From contig QQUF01000040.1 of the NCBI GenBank assembly GCA_008501735.1, positions 62,001 to 126,000 of the forward strand: a DNA stretch of 64,000 nucleotides, read 5' to 3'. Below are positions 8,566-20,312 of this stretch, piece after piece (positions within the stretch are counted from its first letter, which is position 1; the number at the start of each line of letters is the position of its first letter). The notes below the pieces were generated by a model. The model was not told where the DNA came from, ran no database searches, and saw only the letters and a program-made list of their open reading frames with translations. The DNA comes from Calditrichota bacterium (GTDB lineage: Bacteria; CLD3). The position numbers and the translations under genes were made by a program.

Positions 8566-10836
8566 ATGCCCTTTAGAGACTCAGATATTGCAAAAGCAAT
8601 ATATAATAGAAATGTTCAAAGTATAGTTTCGTTATTCTTTAAAAACGAAAATAATATACCAAAAATAAAACATGGATTTAATACTGAAACTGAGCTTTGG
8701 GATTATAAAAGCAATTCTCCAAAAATAGCAAGAAACGATAAAATAGCTTTAGAAGATTGGGCAGAGATGTGTAAAGATATTTTAGCTTTTCATAATCAAA
8801 AAGGAGGAATAATTTTTTTTGGTATTGATGATGATTTTAAATTTCTTGGGGCAAATACTACATTAGATAGTAAAAAAGTTAATGATAAAATTAAGAAATA
8901 TTTACCTGATACAATTTGGGTTGAATACCATAGAGAATTTATACAATCAGATCAAAGGTATTTAGGTATTGCTATAATTCAACCTAGAGGACCTGTTTTT
9001 GAAAGATTTACTTACACATCTCCTAAAAAATATAACGGAAAGCTCATTTTTAAAAAAGGGGACTCAGCGATAAGACAAGGTGATTCTTCCATAATTATAA
9101 AACAAAATGAAGTGAATAAATTTCATAGTAATAAATTAAGCCCAATCCTAAATAAAATTTATACAGTTGATGAAAGTTATTTTAGAATACTACAACCAGA
9201 TTACAATAAATTTGTAGAAAGAAAAGAACTGTGTAAAGAAGTGTTAAACTCAATAAACGATCCAAGAGTCTCAGTAACATCTTTAATTGGAATTGGAGGA
9301 GTTGGTAAAACAGCAACAGCAACTTGGGCAGTTTTAGAAGCCTATAAGAAAAGTCTATTTCGTTTTATTGTTTCAATTACTGCAAAAGACAGAGAACTTA
9401 CAGCATTTGGTATAAAAGCTTTAGAACCTAAACTTACTAGCTTTGAGTCTTTGTTGAATGCAATTTTTGATGTACTAGGGTTTCCAGAATTAAAAACTAA
9501 TAGTATTTTAGAAAAAGAAAAAGAGGCAAAGGAACTTCTTAAAAACTCTGACGGATTACTTTATGTTGATAATTTGGAAACAGTTGATGACTTAAGGATA
9601 ATTATGTTTTTAGATTCATTACCTGTTGGAGTTCACGCGATTGTAACTTCAAGAAGGTCACGTGTTAGAGTTGCAACAAGACCAATTGAGGTAAAACAAT
9701 TAAATGAGAAAGAGGCCATAAGTTTTATCAAAACCTTATCAGAAGAATCAGGGTTAAAATATTGTAGTTCATTTTCAAAAAATGAATATTTTAGAATAAG
9801 AAACTCATGTGATGGAATCCCATTGGCTATGAGATGGACATTAACTAAATCTAAAACACCTCAAGATGCCTTAAGACTTGCTGAAAATATTACACATAGA
9901 AGTTTACAAGGGGAAGAGCTATTAGAGTTTTGTTTTAGGAGAGTTTTCCAAGAAATGGATTCCATTGAAAAAGAAATTTTACAGATTTTGTCAATTTTTA
10001 ATCACCCAATACAATATGAAGCTATAATTGTTGGAATGAACATGGATGGGTTACATGAAAGAGTTTCTGATGTAATTGAAGGATTGATTGAAGATGCTTT
10101 AGTAAATAGGATTTTTGATACAGAAACGAACGACTATAATTTTTTCTTGTCGCCAATTACAAAGTCTTTTATTTATGCTGATGTTAGAAAAGATAAACAA
10201 TTTGAGAAAAATATTCGAAAGAAACTTACTCGGTATTTTGAAGCGAATGATATTCAGGGAGAAGAAAAAAGAAAAATTATTAGAGGTATTCGCCAAGGAG
10301 AAAGTAATAATGAATCCGCACTCATTGATTTAGCAATTTCTGCAAAGAGAAAGCATGATATAGATGGAGCCGAAATATTATTGAATCAAGCTCTAAATAG
10401 AAACCCGAGAAGTTGGAAAGCTTCGAGAGAACTTGCAGAACTTTATAGAAAAAAAGAAAACCTTTCGGAGGCTCTAAAGTTATATGAGCAAGCAGCTATA
10501 AATTCTCCTAGAAGAGGCAATGATAAAGCTTTAATTTATAGAGAATGGGGAATGTTATTAAGACAATCAGGTTTACCTAAAGCAACTGACTACGCCATTG
10601 ATAAATTTGAAGTCTCATTACTAGAGGCTCCAAATGATGAAATTACTCTTACGGCAGTTTCTCAACTTTATTATAAAAAAGGAATGAATAAAAAAGTTAT
10701 AGAATATCTAGAACCATTGATAAATCATCCTAATCAAAGAACAAGAACCTTTGTTTTGCCTTTGCTTTTAAAAGCTTATAAAAACACAAACGATATTTTA
10801 AAAATTGCTCAGGTCAAAAAATTAATGGAAAATTAG
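8566..10836 (+). CDS. AlbA_2 (Schlafen-like)-NB-ARC STAND NTPase with TPR sensor; candidate antiviral protein
   Basis: A 756-aa cytoplasmic protein. Residues about 41-185 form an AlbA_2/Schlafen-type nucleic-acid-binding domain: E-T-E-L-W-D-Y-K, then I-L-A-F-H-N-Q-K-G-G and F-F-G-I-D-D-D. An NB-ARC NTPase follows, with Walker A G-I-G-G-V-G-K-T (242-249), Walker B L-L-Y-V-D-N-L-E (331-338), an arginine-rich T-S-R-R-S-R (361-366) and the G-I-P-L-A motif (417-421). A winged-helix region comes next, then TPR-like helices from about 595. The order effector/NTPase/superhelical sensor matches antiviral STAND (Avs) logic, but the effector here is not a usual nuclease. The gene stands alone, is AT-rich with many ATA and AGA codons, and has its own ribosome site (AGGAGA). 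A regulatory role is the main alternative to defence. Confidence 0.8.
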   Translation: MPFRDSDIAKAIYNRNVQSIVSLFFKNENNIPKIKHGFNTETELWDYKSNSPKIARNDKIALEDWAEMCKDILAFHNQKGGIIFFGIDDDFKFLGANTTLDSKKVNDKIKKYLPDTIWVEYHREFIQSDQRYLGIAIIQPRGPVFERFTYTSPKKYNGKLIFKKGDSAIRQGDSSIIIKQNEVNKFHSNKLSPILNKIYTVDESYFRILQPDYNKFVERKELCKEVLNSINDPRVSVTSLIGIGGVGKTATATWAVLEAYKKSLFRFIVSITAKDRELTAFGIKALEPKLTSFESLLNAIFDVLGFPELKTNSILEKEKEAKELLKNSDGLLYVDNLETVDDLRIIMFLDSLPVGVHAIVTSRRSRVRVATRPIEVKQLNEKEAISFIKTLSEESGLKYCSSFSKNEYFRIRNSCDGIPLAMRWTLTKSKTPQDALRLAENITHRSLQGEELLEFCFRRVFQEMDSIEKEILQILSIFNHPIQYEAIIVGMNMDGLHERVSDVIEGLIEDALVNRIFDTETNDYNFFLSPITKSFIYADVRKDKQFEKNIRKKLTRYFEANDIQGEEKRKIIRGIRQGESNNESALIDLAISAKRKHDIDGAEILLNQALNRNPRSWKASRELAELYRKKENLSEALKLYEQAAINSPRRGNDKALIYREWGMLLRQSGLPKATDYAIDKFEVSLLEAPNDEITLTAVSQLYYKKGMNKKVIEYLEPLINHPNQRTRTFVLPLLLKAYKNTNDILKIAQVKKLMEN

Positions 10837-15307: not shown

Positions 15308-16651
15308 ATGCTAACTAAAGACCAATTTGCCGACCTTTCGGAAAAAATTATAAAATTATCTCCTGCAAATGAGACAGAAGTAAGTTATGCAGGAAGTGAA
15401 AATTCCCTGACAAGATTTTCGAATAATATCATTACTCAAAATGTTATCAAAAAGGACGAATCAATTTCAATTTTATTAGTAAAAGAAGGTAAAACAAGTC
15501 GTGTGAGAATTCACGAATTTGACGACGAGTCAATTAATAAAGCCTTCAAAAATGGAATGGAAATTATGAGCCTTTCCAAAGAACACGATAAATTCCTTCC
15601 GTTGCCTGAAGCACAAAAATATCAAGAAATCAGAAATTGCTTTTTTGAAGACACAGCCAATTTTTCACCGATTGAAAGAGCAGAGCAGATTTCATTCGCA
15701 GTGAAAGAAGCGGAAGCTAAAAAATTATCAATGGCAGGAATTTATACTTCAGGTGAAACTCGTTCTGCAATGGCAAATTCAAATGGTTTAATAGCATTTG
15801 ACAAAAGAACAAATGCACAAGTTTCATTAACTGCACAATCTGAGACAAGTTATGGTTGGGCAGAAGACGGAAACAGAGACGTTGCCAAAATTGACATCGA
15901 AAAAGCAACTCAAACGGCAATCGAAAAATGCCTTACAAGCCAAAACCCAACCGAAATTGAACCCGGAAAATACGATGTAGTTTTGGAAGCTCCTTGTGTA
16001 ACTGACTTTCTTTCTTACTTGAATTGGAAAGCATTCGGTGGACTTGCTTACTTGGAAAATAGAAGTTTTATGGCAGGTAAACTCGGTCAAAAAATCTTTG
16101 GTGAAAACATCACAATCAAAGAAAATGCTTTCAACGAAATGAATCCGGGAAAACCTTACGATGGAGAAGGAATGCCAAAGAAACCTGTAACTCTCATCGA
16201 AAACGGTGTTTTAAAAGAAATCGTTCACGACCGATACACAGCTCAAAAAGTTGGGACTGAATCAACAGGTCACGGTTTTGGATTTCCAAATTCAATTGGA
16301 CCTTACCCTTCAAATCTCGAACTTTCAGCAGGAAACTCAAGCCTTGAAGAAATGATTGCTTCAACAGAAAGAGGACTTTTGGTAACTCATTTTCACTACA
16401 CGAACACACTTGACCATTTTAATTTAATTTTGACAGGAATGACTCGCGACGGACTTTGGTTAATCGAAAATGGTAAAATTTCAAGACCAGTGATGAATCT
16501 TCGTTTCACCGACAGTATTCCACGAGTTATGAACAACATCGAATTGATTTCAAAAGAATTGCAATTCAAACACACATTTTGGGGAAGCGGATTCGTTGTT
16601 CCTTCAATCAAAGTAAAAGACTTCAACTTCTCAAGCAAAACGGAAAGGTAG
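15308..16651 (+). CDS. tldE: TldE/PmbA-family metalloprotease subunit
   Basis: A 447-aa member of the TldD/PmbA (peptidase U62) family, corresponding to the catalytically inactive TldE/PmbA partner. The TldD/TldE heterodimer degrades unfolded peptides and matures some ribosomally made peptides. Visible features are the N-terminal R-F-S-N-N-I-I-T-Q segment, G-E-T-R-S-A-M-A-N-S-N-G mid-protein, and the C-terminal R-G-L-L-V-T-H-F-H-Y-T-N motif. The H-E-x-x-x-H motif of TldD is absent. Its partner tldD begins 2.07 kb downstream; the intervening DNA is filled by an ATPase gene and a TOPRIM-like gene. An AAGGA site lies just before the ATG. Confidence 0.9.
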   Translation: MLTKDQFADLSEKIIKLSPANETEVSYAGSENSLTRFSNNIITQNVIKKDESISILLVKEGKTSRVRIHEFDDESINKAFKNGMEIMSLSKEHDKFLPLPEAQKYQEIRNCFFEDTANFSPIERAEQISFAVKEAEAKKLSMAGIYTSGETRSAMANSNGLIAFDKRTNAQVSLTAQSETSYGWAEDGNRDVAKIDIEKATQTAIEKCLTSQNPTEIEPGKYDVVLEAPCVTDFLSYLNWKAFGGLAYLENRSFMAGKLGQKIFGENITIKENAFNEMNPGKPYDGEGMPKKPVTLIENGVLKEIVHDRYTAQKVGTESTGHGFGFPNSIGPYPSNLELSAGNSSLEEMIASTERGLLVTHFHYTNTLDHFNLILTGMTRDGLWLIENGKISRPVMNLRFTDSIPRVMNNIELISKELQFKHTFWGSGFVVPSIKVKDFNFSSKTER

Positions 16652-16659
16652 GAATTCCG

Positions 16660-17997
16660 ATGCTAATTTTAGAAGAACTCGAAATTGTAAAATTTAAAAA
16701 CGATTACGGCGACGAACTCATCACAAACCAAAAGATGAAATTCGGCAAAAGTTTAAATTTACTCATCGGTCCAAATGGTGGTGGGAAAACTACTTTATTA
16801 AAAATTTTACAGGCTTGTGTTTCATTTGATTTTGAGGAACTGAAAGAGAATGAATTTGAGATAAAAGTAAAAGGTGAAGTCTATTTTTTGGGTATTAAGC
16901 GAGCAAAAATCCAAGCAGAATTTGATTCAATAAAGAAGAAAACAAAGATAGAAGAAAAGGTTGAGCTTCAAGCAATCAAGAAAAATACCGATAGAACTAG
17001 GCAAAAAAATATTTTAAACTTCAAAATCAATTATAGCTTTGATGATGGAAATCCTAACTTCACTATTAATAAGAGAAGTAATGAAATTAATATTTACGAA
17101 AATGAAGCTCTTAAAAAAAATAAAGATTTTTATAGTGATAATTGGAACTTTGGTGATTTCTTTTCTGACTTAAAAGTAGAAACGCAAAATGATAAAAAGT
17201 TTTTAAACCATAGTAAGTTGTCTTTTCTCCAAACTCCTTCAATGTACCGTAGAGGAGTTGAAGATATTTCCGAATTAGAAGCTATCTTAAGAAAGACAAT
17301 AAAAACTTATATTTTAGGAAAACCTAAATTTAATCCTTTTCCTTCTTACCTTTTCAGTGAACCAGAATATGGTGAGTTAAATAACATTATTTTTTGGGAA
17401 CTTGGTAAGTTTTTAGAAAACCATAAAGATTATAAAAAAATAATTGAAATTGATAATTTAGACTTAGAATTCAAAAGTGATTTTTTGCAAAGAATTAAGC
17501 AAAAATATACTTTTTTTGATTCTTTTATAATCAGATTCAGTGATAAAATTACTTCCAAAGAGGAAATTGAATACCGAGATGGAAAAATTATTTTCTTTAA
17601 AAATAAAAGAGAAATGGATTTTAATAAAGCCACAACTTGGGGGCAAAAAAGATTCATTTATTTATTAAGTAAAATTGAGGCTCAAGATACACCTCTAATT
17701 GATGAAATAGAAAATGGCTTTCACCCGAAAATGGTGAGGGATTTGATAAATAGTATTTATGAACAAAAGCCACAAAAACAAGCTTTTGTTACTACTCACA
17801 GTCATCACATTATCAACAGTCTAAATTACGACTCAATGGAAGAACTTGGTAAGTCAATTGTGCTTTGTAAAATTAGCAAGGAAGAAAAGCTTACTTTCGC
17901 AAACTTGAAAGGTAAAAATCTAGAAGTTAATTTTAATAAAGTCAGAACTGGGTTAGTAGATTTACCAGAATCTTTACTTTTTGAGGGAATTTGGTAG
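16660..17997 (+). CDS. AAA15/AAA21-type ATPase (OLD/AriA-like); candidate defence sensor
   Basis: The start at ATG 16660 (ribosome site GGAAAGG, 8 nt after the tldE stop) gives 445 aa. The N-terminal strand E-E-L-E-I-V-K-F-K-N-D-Y-G is typical of OLD/RecF-like ATPases. Walker A is G-P-N-G-G-G-K-T-T (37-45), Walker B is L-I-D-E-I-E-N-G-F-H-P (D348, E349), and the switch histidine is in T-T-H-S-H-H (H380). A T-T-W-G-Q-K-R-F segment replaces the canonical ABC signature. A charged insertion (about 70-330) fills the middle. Unlike full OLD proteins there is no C-terminal TOPRIM; a TOPRIM-like product is encoded by the next gene. The arrangement resembles PARIS-type AriA/AriB and other split OLD systems. 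The defence role is inferred. Confidence 0.82.
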   Translation: MLILEELEIVKFKNDYGDELITNQKMKFGKSLNLLIGPNGGGKTTLLKILQACVSFDFEELKENEFEIKVKGEVYFLGIKRAKIQAEFDSIKKKTKIEEKVELQAIKKNTDRTRQKNILNFKINYSFDDGNPNFTINKRSNEINIYENEALKKNKDFYSDNWNFGDFFSDLKVETQNDKKFLNHSKLSFLQTPSMYRRGVEDISELEAILRKTIKTYILGKPKFNPFPSYLFSEPEYGELNNIIFWELGKFLENHKDYKKIIEIDNLDLEFKSDFLQRIKQKYTFFDSFIIRFSDKITSKEEIEYRDGKIIFFKNKREMDFNKATTWGQKRFIYLLSKIEAQDTPLIDEIENGFHPKMVRDLINSIYEQKPQKQAFVTTHSHHIINSLNYDSMEELGKSIVLCKISKEEKLTFANLKGKNLEVNFNKVRTGLVDLPESLLFEGIW

Positions 17998-18696
17998 GTG
18001 AAGATTTTTTATTTTACAGAAGATGTAGCTTCACCTGAAGTTAACGAGAAGATTATCCAGTCAAGTTTAAACTTTTTAGGGTTCAGAGATGCAGTAGTTT
18101 TTCAGCAAGAAGGAATTAAAATACTTGGTGCAGATATAAATAATTTGAAAAATTTTCAGACTCTTATAAGTAATATTTTAGCAAAAGCAATTCTTGAAGA
18201 GGAGAAAGTTATATTCTGTTTTCATATAGATACCGAAGTAAGTTTTGATATTTTTCAGCGTTCTTTGAACGGTGAAATTGATTTACTAGAAAATGGTACT
18301 ATTTTGAAGAAATATTTAAGAGACTACCAAGAAATAATTAAGACCCTTTTTAAAGCTGCTATGCAAATTTCTGAAAATTTGAAATCTGATAGTTTTGTAG
18401 AAATGTTCCCTTGTCGCGCAATAGAAAGTTGGTGTGCGGCAAATCAACCTGAACTTATCATTCAGAATAGGCAAGTAAGAAAAGAACTAGCACAAATTAT
18501 TAACTTACCGTTTTTAGATTACCTTCAAAAACTTGATGAAATTGAAAAGTTTAAATTTGGAAAAACTGGAAGACAAGGGAAAGGTTTAGGTACGATGTTG
18601 AAACTTGTAAACAACAATTTCCCAACTAAAGAATTTTACGGAATTGAAAAGTCTTTTCACAGATTTGTGGAAAATTTAAGGTTAGCGATAAATTAG
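17998..18696 (+). CDS. Putative TOPRIM-like partner of the OLD-type ATPase
   Basis: A 232-aa cytoplasmic protein starting at GTG directly after the stop codon of the ATPase gene, so translation is probably coupled. TOPRIM-like features are a first strand K-I-F-Y-F-T-E-D (E8) followed by a helix, a hydrophobic strand V-I-F-C-F-H-I-D-T-E (D78, E80), and a late M-F-P-C-R-A-I-E-S-W-C-A-A-N motif (136-149), recalling the I-E-x-W-x-x-A segment of DUF4276/DUF4435 effectors. A basic, glycine-rich G-K-T-G-R-Q-G-K-G-L-G follows near 193-203. The assignment rests on motif layout, not overall similarity. A nuclease or tRNA/DNA-cleaving effector released by the ATPase is the working hypothesis. Confidence 0.5.
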   Translation: MKIFYFTEDVASPEVNEKIIQSSLNFLGFRDAVVFQQEGIKILGADINNLKNFQTLISNILAKAILEEEKVIFCFHIDTEVSFDIFQRSLNGEIDLLENGTILKKYLRDYQEIIKTLFKAAMQISENLKSDSFVEMFPCRAIESWCAANQPELIIQNRQVRKELAQIINLPFLDYLQKLDEIEKFKFGKTGRQGKGLGTMLKLVNNNFPTKEFYGIEKSFHRFVENLRLAIN

Positions 18697-18720: not shown

Positions 18721-20178
18721 ATGAAAAGATTAGCCGAATTAGCGATTGACACAGCGGTTTTGAATGGAGCTTCTTATGCAGACATTAGAATAATTTACAC
18801 TAAAAGAGAAAAGTTAGAAGTTACAACCGGTCACGTTACAGAAATGGATATTTCTGAAAATGTTGGCTTCGGAGTTAGAGTAATTGCAAATGGAGCTTGG
18901 GGGTTTGCAAGTTCAAACAATCTTAAAGTTGAAGAAATTCAAAAGACAGCAAAACTCGCAGTCCAAATTGCAAAAGCAAGTGCAATGCTCAAAAAACAAG
19001 ATGTAAAACTTGCCAAAGAACCTGTTCACAACGAGAGATGGCAAACACCTTACTTGATTGACCCATTTCAAGTTCCGATGCACGAAAAACTGGGTTTAAT
19101 GCACCAAATTGATGACATTCTCAGAAGAGACAGTCAAATTAAACGAACTTCCGTTTCAATGGATTTCTTGATGGAACACCAATGGCTTGCAACTTCAGAA
19201 GGAACTTTTATTGACCAAAAATTAATGAGAAGTGGAGTAGGTTACAGTGCAACAGCAGTCGGAAATAACGATATGCAAATTCGTTCTTACCCAAATTCTT
19301 TTAGAGGGCAGTATATGACAATGGGTTATGAATTGATTCACGGAATTCCACTTGTCGAAAATGCTGAAAGAGTCAGAGAGGAAGCGATTGCACTTTTGAC
19401 AGCAAAAGAATGCCCTGAAGGCACAAAAGATATAATTTTAGACGGAACTCAAATGGCTTTGCAAATCCACGAGTCAGTTGGACACGCAACAGAACTCGAC
19501 AGAGTTTTGGGAATGGAAGCAAATTACGCAGGAATGAGTTTTGCGACATTAGAAAAGCTCAACAACTTTCGTTACGGTTCTGACGTTGTGAATTTAGTTT
19601 GTGATTCAACGGTTCCAAACGGACTTGCAACAATCGGTTACGATGACGACGGAGTTCGTGCAAAACGTTATCATTTGGTGAAAGATGGTGATTTTGTCGG
19701 CTACCAATTTAACAGAGAACTTGCTCACACAATCGAAGCAGAAGAGTCGAGCGGAAACAATAGAGCTCACGGTTGGAGCAATATTCCGATTGTAAGAATT
19801 ACAAACCTGAGTTTAATGCCTGGTGAATGGGAATTTGATGATTTGGTTTCTGACACTGAAGATGGAATTTATATGGAAACCAACAAATGTTGGAGCATTG
19901 ACCAATGGCGATTAAATTTTGAATTTGGAACTGAAATCGGTTGGGAAATTAAAAACGGTAAAAAAGGTGAAATGCTCAAAAATTGCTCTTACCAAAGCAT
20001 CACACCGAAATTCTGGGGTTCTTGCGACGCAATTTGTAACGACAATTATTGGACACTTTGGGGAGTAAGTAATTGCGGAAAAGGCCAACCTGGACAAACC
20101 GCCGAAATGTCTCACGGTGCTTCTCCAACAAGATTCAGAAACATAAATGTCGGAATTGGAAATTCAACTTTGAAATGA
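18721..20178 (+). CDS. tldD: TldD-family metalloprotease, catalytic subunit
   Basis: The protein is 485 aa. The TldD signature H-E-S-V-G-H-A-T-E-L-D is present, with zinc ligands H250 and H255 and catalytic E251, followed by G-M-E-A-N-Y-A-G. A C-terminal G-S-C-D-A-I-C cysteine region and the ending M-S-H-G-A-S-P-T-R-F are as expected. The N-terminal T-K-R-E-K-L-E-V-T-T-G-H segment forms the substrate clamp. Together with TldE (15308-16651) it should form the heterodimeric protease. Its start lies 24 nt after the TOPRIM-like gene, so all four genes could share one transcript. No clear RiPP biosynthetic genes accompany it. Confidence 0.95.
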   Translation: MKRLAELAIDTAVLNGASYADIRIIYTKREKLEVTTGHVTEMDISENVGFGVRVIANGAWGFASSNNLKVEEIQKTAKLAVQIAKASAMLKKQDVKLAKEPVHNERWQTPYLIDPFQVPMHEKLGLMHQIDDILRRDSQIKRTSVSMDFLMEHQWLATSEGTFIDQKLMRSGVGYSATAVGNNDMQIRSYPNSFRGQYMTMGYELIHGIPLVENAERVREEAIALLTAKECPEGTKDIILDGTQMALQIHESVGHATELDRVLGMEANYAGMSFATLEKLNNFRYGSDVVNLVCDSTVPNGLATIGYDDDGVRAKRYHLVKDGDFVGYQFNRELAHTIEAEESSGNNRAHGWSNIPIVRITNLSLMPGEWEFDDLVSDTEDGIYMETNKCWSIDQWRLNFEFGTEIGWEIKNGKKGEMLKNCSYQSITPKFWGSCDAICNDNYWTLWGVSNCGKGQPGQTAEMSHGASPTRFRNINVGIGNSTLK

Positions 20179-20267
20179 TTAACGACTAATAGAATTTAAA
20201 ATTCATCGGATGGACTGAAAGTTATTTGATGAAAAAATTACATTGTATTTGTTAGCAAAAATTTTGG

Positions 20268-20300
20268 TTTAGTGGTAGTTTTTTAAAAACTACCACTAAA
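20268..20300. terminator. perfect 16-bp hairpin between tldD and the downstream convergent gene
   Basis: Left arm 20268-20283 (TTTAGTGGTAGTTTTT), centre base 20284, right arm 20285-20300. A perfect palindrome with an A/T-rich core, placed between genes that converge on it, so it probably terminates transcription from both sides. Confidence 0.65.
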
Positions 20301-20312
20301 CTTCAAAAATTT

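Follow-up and report, generated by a model that had tools for sequence, protein, structure and literature searches.

An ATPase gene and a putative, divergent DUF4276-like gene between tldE and tldD in two genera

The TldD/E protease breaks down unfolded peptides, one of them the antitoxin fragment CcdA41, and its physiological role has been described as elusive (PMC5810440). In the DNA analysed here, a window of 64,000 nucleotides from an assembly of 4.14 Mb (G000), the tldE and tldD genes are separated by a gene for an ATPase and a gene for a 232-aa protein, referred to below as the effector. This arrangement raises the question of what the two inserted genes encode, how long they have resided in the junction and whether their position is related to the protease encoded on both sides. 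The family comparison was made with one other genome, which belongs to another genus (G001).

Anatomy of the tldE-ATPase-effector-tldD locus

The four genes lie on the + strand of the window with an intact ATPase frame (Table 1). The placement of the pair between tldE and tldD, reported in an earlier note on this DNA, is borne out, both Tld proteins being identified by their Pfam PmbA_TldD domains and TldD carrying the HExxxH motif as HESVGH. The ATPase start was taken as the ATG at 16660, the longest frame opening at 16579. The spacers measure 8 bp between tldE and the ATPase gene, 0 bp between the ATPase and effector genes and 24 bp between the effector gene and tldD, and the effector GTG abuts the TAG stop of the ATPase gene, which supports the translational coupling of the two genes proposed earlier. 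Terminator-like sites were sought on the + strand within the four genes and none was found, predicted promoters within the quartet are fewer than in shuffled sequences, and the hairpin 3' of tldD, predicted on the - strand, reads on the + strand as a palindrome and then TTCAAAAATTTTT. A gene for a small peptide is not apparent among the four. The GC content of the ATPase and effector genes is 0.28-0.30 versus 0.37-0.39 for tldE and tldD, and a search for direct repeats at the pair boundaries returned AT-rich 9-mers only, with no convincing target duplication.

Elsewhere in the window, a gene for a Schlafen AlbA_2, NB-ARC and TPR protein of STAND-type architecture, a possible defence gene, has a very low GC3 (0.17) and is unmatched by PADLOC models.

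Table 1. Coordinates and contents of the loci discussed; positions without a locus name refer to the window.
Feature	Position	Strand	Remarks
tldE (pmbA-like)	15308-16651	+	447 aa; first gene of the quartet; Pfam PmbA_TldD_3rd E 1.2e-57
AAA_21/OLD-type ABC ATPase	16660-17997	+	445 aa; Pfam AAA_21, AAA_15
Walker A GPNGGGKTTL of the ATPase	16768-16796	+	pattern search
Putative effector, divergent DUF4276-like	17998-18696	+	232 aa; GTG start
tldD	18721-20178	+	485 aa; Pfam PmbA_TldD_3rd E 1.5e-30; HESVGH metal site intact
Hairpin, 16-bp stem, A/T flanks on both sides	20267-20301	+	3' of tldD; likely (bidirectional) terminator
Schlafen AlbA_2 + NB-ARC + TPR protein	8566-10836	+	756 aa
Canonical ATPase + DUF4276 pair, own genome (C31)	L074 1489-3213		
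Second, remote TldD/TldE-like pair, own genome (L037)	G000:C52 ~151601-154088		29% identity
f225 cargo loci in the tldE-tldD gap	L150 4264-8718; L175 1639-4065; L151 6210-8469; L152 5164-6710		
f225, G388 gap			Macro (PF01661); CAP12/Pycsar TIR (PF10137, E 5e-37); 446-aa uncharacterised protein; ParE toxin (PF05016)
f225, G390 gap			protein kinase + RhuM protein
f225, G392 gap			278-aa protein + 441-aa protein resembling the G388 446-aa protein (weak HEPN)
f225, G386 gap			153-aa protein + zinc-ribbon protein
441-446-aa family	L151 7144-8469; L150 6563-7903		
f225, G387, tldD region	L153 1543-5776		

Affinities of the two inserted genes

The OLD-type ATPase with Walker motifs that had been recognized previously is supported as a protein of OLD/AriA/PtuA type by Pfam, PADLOC and PDB sequence matches. 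Pfam AAA_21 is matched at E 1e-15 (59 bits, above the cut-off) and AAA_15 at E 1e-10; the exact P-loop pattern GPNGGGKTT occurs once in the window and in none of 100 shuffles, the Walker B/D-loop reads PLIDEIENGFHP, of the DEIExGFHP kind, and the H-loop TTHSHHIIN. Since the PADLOC models PtuA (4e-17, the best single model), AriA (6e-16), AbiLi (4e-15), GajA and HEC match at about 1e-17 to 1e-10 and none of them clearly stands out, the ATPase is, judged by these matches, not assignable to one named system. Among PDB sequences the best match is PtuA (8ee4, 1e-5), AriA also being matched, and a profile of the ATPases that partner DUF4276 proteins gave 44.0 and 37.6 bits.

Searches of Pfam, NCBIfam, PADLOC and PHROGs gave no curated match for the window effector. 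The DUF4276 and HEC-01B models of Pfam and PADLOC leave it unmatched up to E 10, and the DUF4435 and AriB models miss both effector copies (window and G001) at the same limit. The comparison with DUF4276 and DUF4435 models that had been suggested was in this way negative for curated models and suggestive, by way of the G001 orthologue, for a profile of ATPase-linked DUF4276 proteins. DUF4276 proteins were gathered from 117 genomes, most of them encoded directly behind an AAA ATPase gene, and 16 of the shorter ATPase-linked ones, all 16 matching PADLOC HEC-01B and Pfam DUF4276, formed the test profile (A4). Against this profile the G001 effector reaches 19.7 bits (maximum of its own 2000 shuffles, 9.3; maximum of the non-DUF4276 ORFs in a set of 716, 5.7), within the 8-21 bits spanned by true DUF4276 proteins that are not profile members, and 9.7-22.6 bits in a jackknife leaving out one member each time. 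The window effector scores 1.4 bits only, with 52 of 2000 shuffles equal or better, and is assigned as DUF4276-like because it is 38-44% identical to the G001 orthologue. With hhalign, the two-row effector alignment scored higher than each of 100 column-shuffled versions, both locally and globally, at a probability of only 15-30%, and a profile built from five long canonical DUF4276 proteins gave no signal with the effector.

The residues E8, D78 and E80 and the IESWCAAN motif are all found in the 232-aa protein as claimed. In a joint alignment with A4, E8, D78-x-E80, E143-x-W145 and S219-F220 fall on conserved columns and in order, D78-x-E80 corresponding to DxD in the G001 effector. The ExExW motif, invariant in the 16 aligned members, is AxExW in both effectors (A141, E143, W145), the first Glu being replaced by Ala. 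The adjacent AAA_21 ATPase gene is also present, as in DUF4276-ATPase pairs.

With regard to the fold, the effector is called a TOPRIM-superfamily protein because RloB, DUF3226 and OLD-like TOPRIM models are weakly matched by part of the A4 set; the TOPRIM fold is putative, motifs and profiles being the evidence for it. AlphaFold models from two-sequence alignments in both row orders are of low confidence (pLDDT 48.7 and 47.7); in the first of them E8, D78 and E143 come after strands, an arrangement compatible with the TOPRIM order but no proof of it. The low-confidence model retrieved nothing with Foldseek at E<=0.001, and its best VIA-align match was an unrelated alpha/beta protein (Z 5.9, rmsd 3.4, 88 residues). 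TOPRIM entries are absent from the Foldseek and VIA-align listings, which, given models of low confidence, excludes nothing. Of the earlier TOPRIM-like reading, a DUF4276-type affinity is supported by the G001 profile score and the motifs.

Several known systems share features with the pair. PARIS follows a plan of separate ATPase and Toprim genes (PMC10568477), and its effector AriB, which belongs to the DUF4435 models, cleaves tRNA-Lys as a two-metal Toprim ribonuclease (PMC12409363). The likeness to AriA/AriB proposed previously holds for the split two-gene plan and the AriA match; PARIS membership is not supported, since the AriB and DUF4435 models miss the second protein and the ATPase matches are not AriA-specific, PtuA and AbiLi scoring equal or better. 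HEC-01, a PADLOC candidate system composed of the AAA ATPase HEC-01A and the DUF4276 protein HEC-01B, has the same split into adjacent genes, and the window effector aligns to this group with the E, DxD, ExW and SF motifs in order. However, the effector has no direct HEC-01B/DUF4276 model match and carries Ala at the first Glu of ExExW, the ATPase scores higher with PtuA, AriA, AbiLi and PDC-M25A than with HEC-01A, and the genomic location differs. AbiL (AbiLi ATPase and AbiLii) is matched by the ATPase and, through AbiLii, by one member of the DUF4276-like set (3e-4), whereas the window effector itself is unmatched by AbiLii. Septu and retrons provide the best ATPase model, PtuA, but the partner is unmatched by PtuB models and no retron parts were seen. 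A literature search on DUF4276 in defence found no report among the papers accessible. Taken by these comparisons, the two genes probably form a divergent ATPase and DUF4276/TOPRIM-superfamily pair that would work like PARIS without belonging to it.

Separate canonical ATPase and DUF4276 pairs occur in the same genomes, one in G000 (Table 1) and three more in G001 (C99, C130, C143).

Age and distribution of the insertion

The G001 genome (contig JADZEA010000103.1, isolate SJ803) has all four genes in unchanged order, again with tight spacing of tldE and the ATPase gene and with an effector start that overlaps the ATPase stop. As this order recurs in a second genus, the arrangement is not due to chance. 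Identity between the window and G001 is 62% for tldE and 82% for tldD, and, depending on the method, 46-52% for the ATPase and 38-44% for the effector; the G001 pair shows the same compositional contrast (GC 0.27-0.28 versus 0.37-0.41 for its Tld genes). The flanks differ, the only window-G001 matches beyond the quartet being repeated C-terminal sorting-type domains of secreted proteins, and no defence island was found in the 18 kb examined near the G001 copy. The shared quartet implies that the pair predates the split of the genera, and a recent insertion is not supported by the sequence comparison, which describes the pair as an old resident; its AT richness may date from long ago or just be usual for genes of this kind.

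In 18 other genomes (G015, G059, G389, G302, G396-G399, G407-G409, G320, G185, G159, G332, G263, G111, G201) tldE and tldD are adjacent with a gap of 10-176 bp, and in about 20 further genomes tldD comes before tldE, the two genes being at most 586 bp apart. The survey of junctions with and without the pair that had been proposed thus found 18 genomes with a tldE-tldD junction lacking it, which indicates that the pair is a derived insert and not ancestral. Of the foreign AT-rich cassette of the earlier note, the low GC is borne out and a fresh insertion is not supported, the quartet being common to two genera; the stable four-gene operon weighed there as the opposite outcome is seen in one family, through G001, the outgroups lacking the pair. 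The TldD proteins closest to those of the G000/G001 family belong to G015, G407 and several genera of family f225, of a different phylum (67-71% identity), and searches of other families of its own class gave only remote TldD homologues (25-28%); acquisition of the tldED operon in the G000 lineage from outside is possible. The G000 genome also harbors a second, remote TldD/TldE-like pair (Table 1).

Relatives of the effector in genome contigs, viral contigs, plasmids and phages are limited to the G001 copy, and those of the ATPase in plasmids, phages, viral contigs, 386 relatives and the phylum of G015 to G000 and G001, so that the pair has a narrow distribution (2/386 genomes). The lack of phage or plasmid relatives counts against a defence module. 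A housekeeping function of the OLD-like ATPase in DNA repair or the cell cycle, with a partner of unrelated fold, would agree with the effector having no curated family and with the cell-cycle role reported for an archaeal OLD-family ATPase (PMC12796447); it is nevertheless unlikely, as the fast divergence (effector 38-44% versus TldD 82%), the low GC and the presence in 2 of 386 genomes suit accessory immune genes better.

Possible function and relation to TldD/E

We lean towards the explanation that the pair is an abortive-infection or toxin-type module, in which the OLD-like ATPase would act as sensor or scaffold and the DUF4276-like protein as a small metal-dependent nuclease effector, inserted once in the family ancestor and now held in the tldE-tldD operon; the nuclease activity, the defence role and the single insertion are what we infer. 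Following one insertion between tldE and tldD in that ancestor, the pair would be expressed within the tldE-ATPase-effector-tldD operon. By analogy with PARIS and HEC-01-type systems, the ATPase would assemble and keep the effector inactive until an infection-related trigger frees or activates it, and the acidic residues E8, D78/E80 and E143 of the effector may then bind metal, host or phage nucleic acid being cut.

Regarding the protease, the flanking genes are intact TldD/TldE orthologues, differing from those of the 18 other genomes in being split by the module. TldD/E might belong to the module, trimming or degrading a peptide, or else an unfolded stretch of the ATPase or effector, in the manner of an antitoxin and thereby setting the activity of the pair. 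Turnover of a pair component is conceivable given that TldD/E degrades unfolded peptides including CcdA41, and Escherichia coli tldD/tldE mutants resist CcdB (PMC5810440); the quartet is moreover kept in two genera despite different flanking genes, and ParE and TIR genes occupy the same gap in another lineage. We regard this participation as improbable, however, because TldD/E is widespread without the pair and broad in its specificity for unfolded peptides, the quartet has no detected small peptide gene, and two genomes are too few to tell co-selection from inertia.

The other lineage is f225, in which four genera hold four different, mostly low-GC cargoes in the tldE-tldD gap (Table 1; GC 0.32-0.44, RhuM 0.52, versus 0.50-0.61 for the Tld genes). 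Gene content suggests that this junction is a permissive site with some immune or toxin-type cargo, a view drawn from four genera only and partly unclassified content. That the junction is a recurrent home of toxin or immune modules because TldD/E processes an unstable component, with the ATPase-DUF4276-like pair, the TIR/Macro/ParE cargo and the kinase/RhuM cargo as independent cases, is very doubtful. A nearly even chance is given to a neutral passenger, functionally unrelated to TldD/E, in a junction that tolerates inserts as both Tld genes stay transcribed. The four f225 cargoes, some without obvious defence content, agree with it, whereas the persistence of an intact pair in two genera despite strong divergence indicates selection for something. 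This alternative concerns the relation to TldD/E and not the function of the pair, and is compatible with the defence-module explanation.

Two further observations were made in f225. The 441-446-aa family occurs in two genera at low GC, with a weak Apea-HEPN match in one, and in G387 tldD is found without tldE in the 8 kb upstream, where lipoprotein-like and release-factor-like genes are located.

If the defence-module explanation is right, the pair would add to the split ATPase/TOPRIM-like systems a divergent branch missed by current defence models, and the tldE-tldD junction would be a place to seek further immune genes. With a widespread protease that degrades an antitoxin fragment and a toxin-type module together in one stable operon, a specific link between the two becomes testable.
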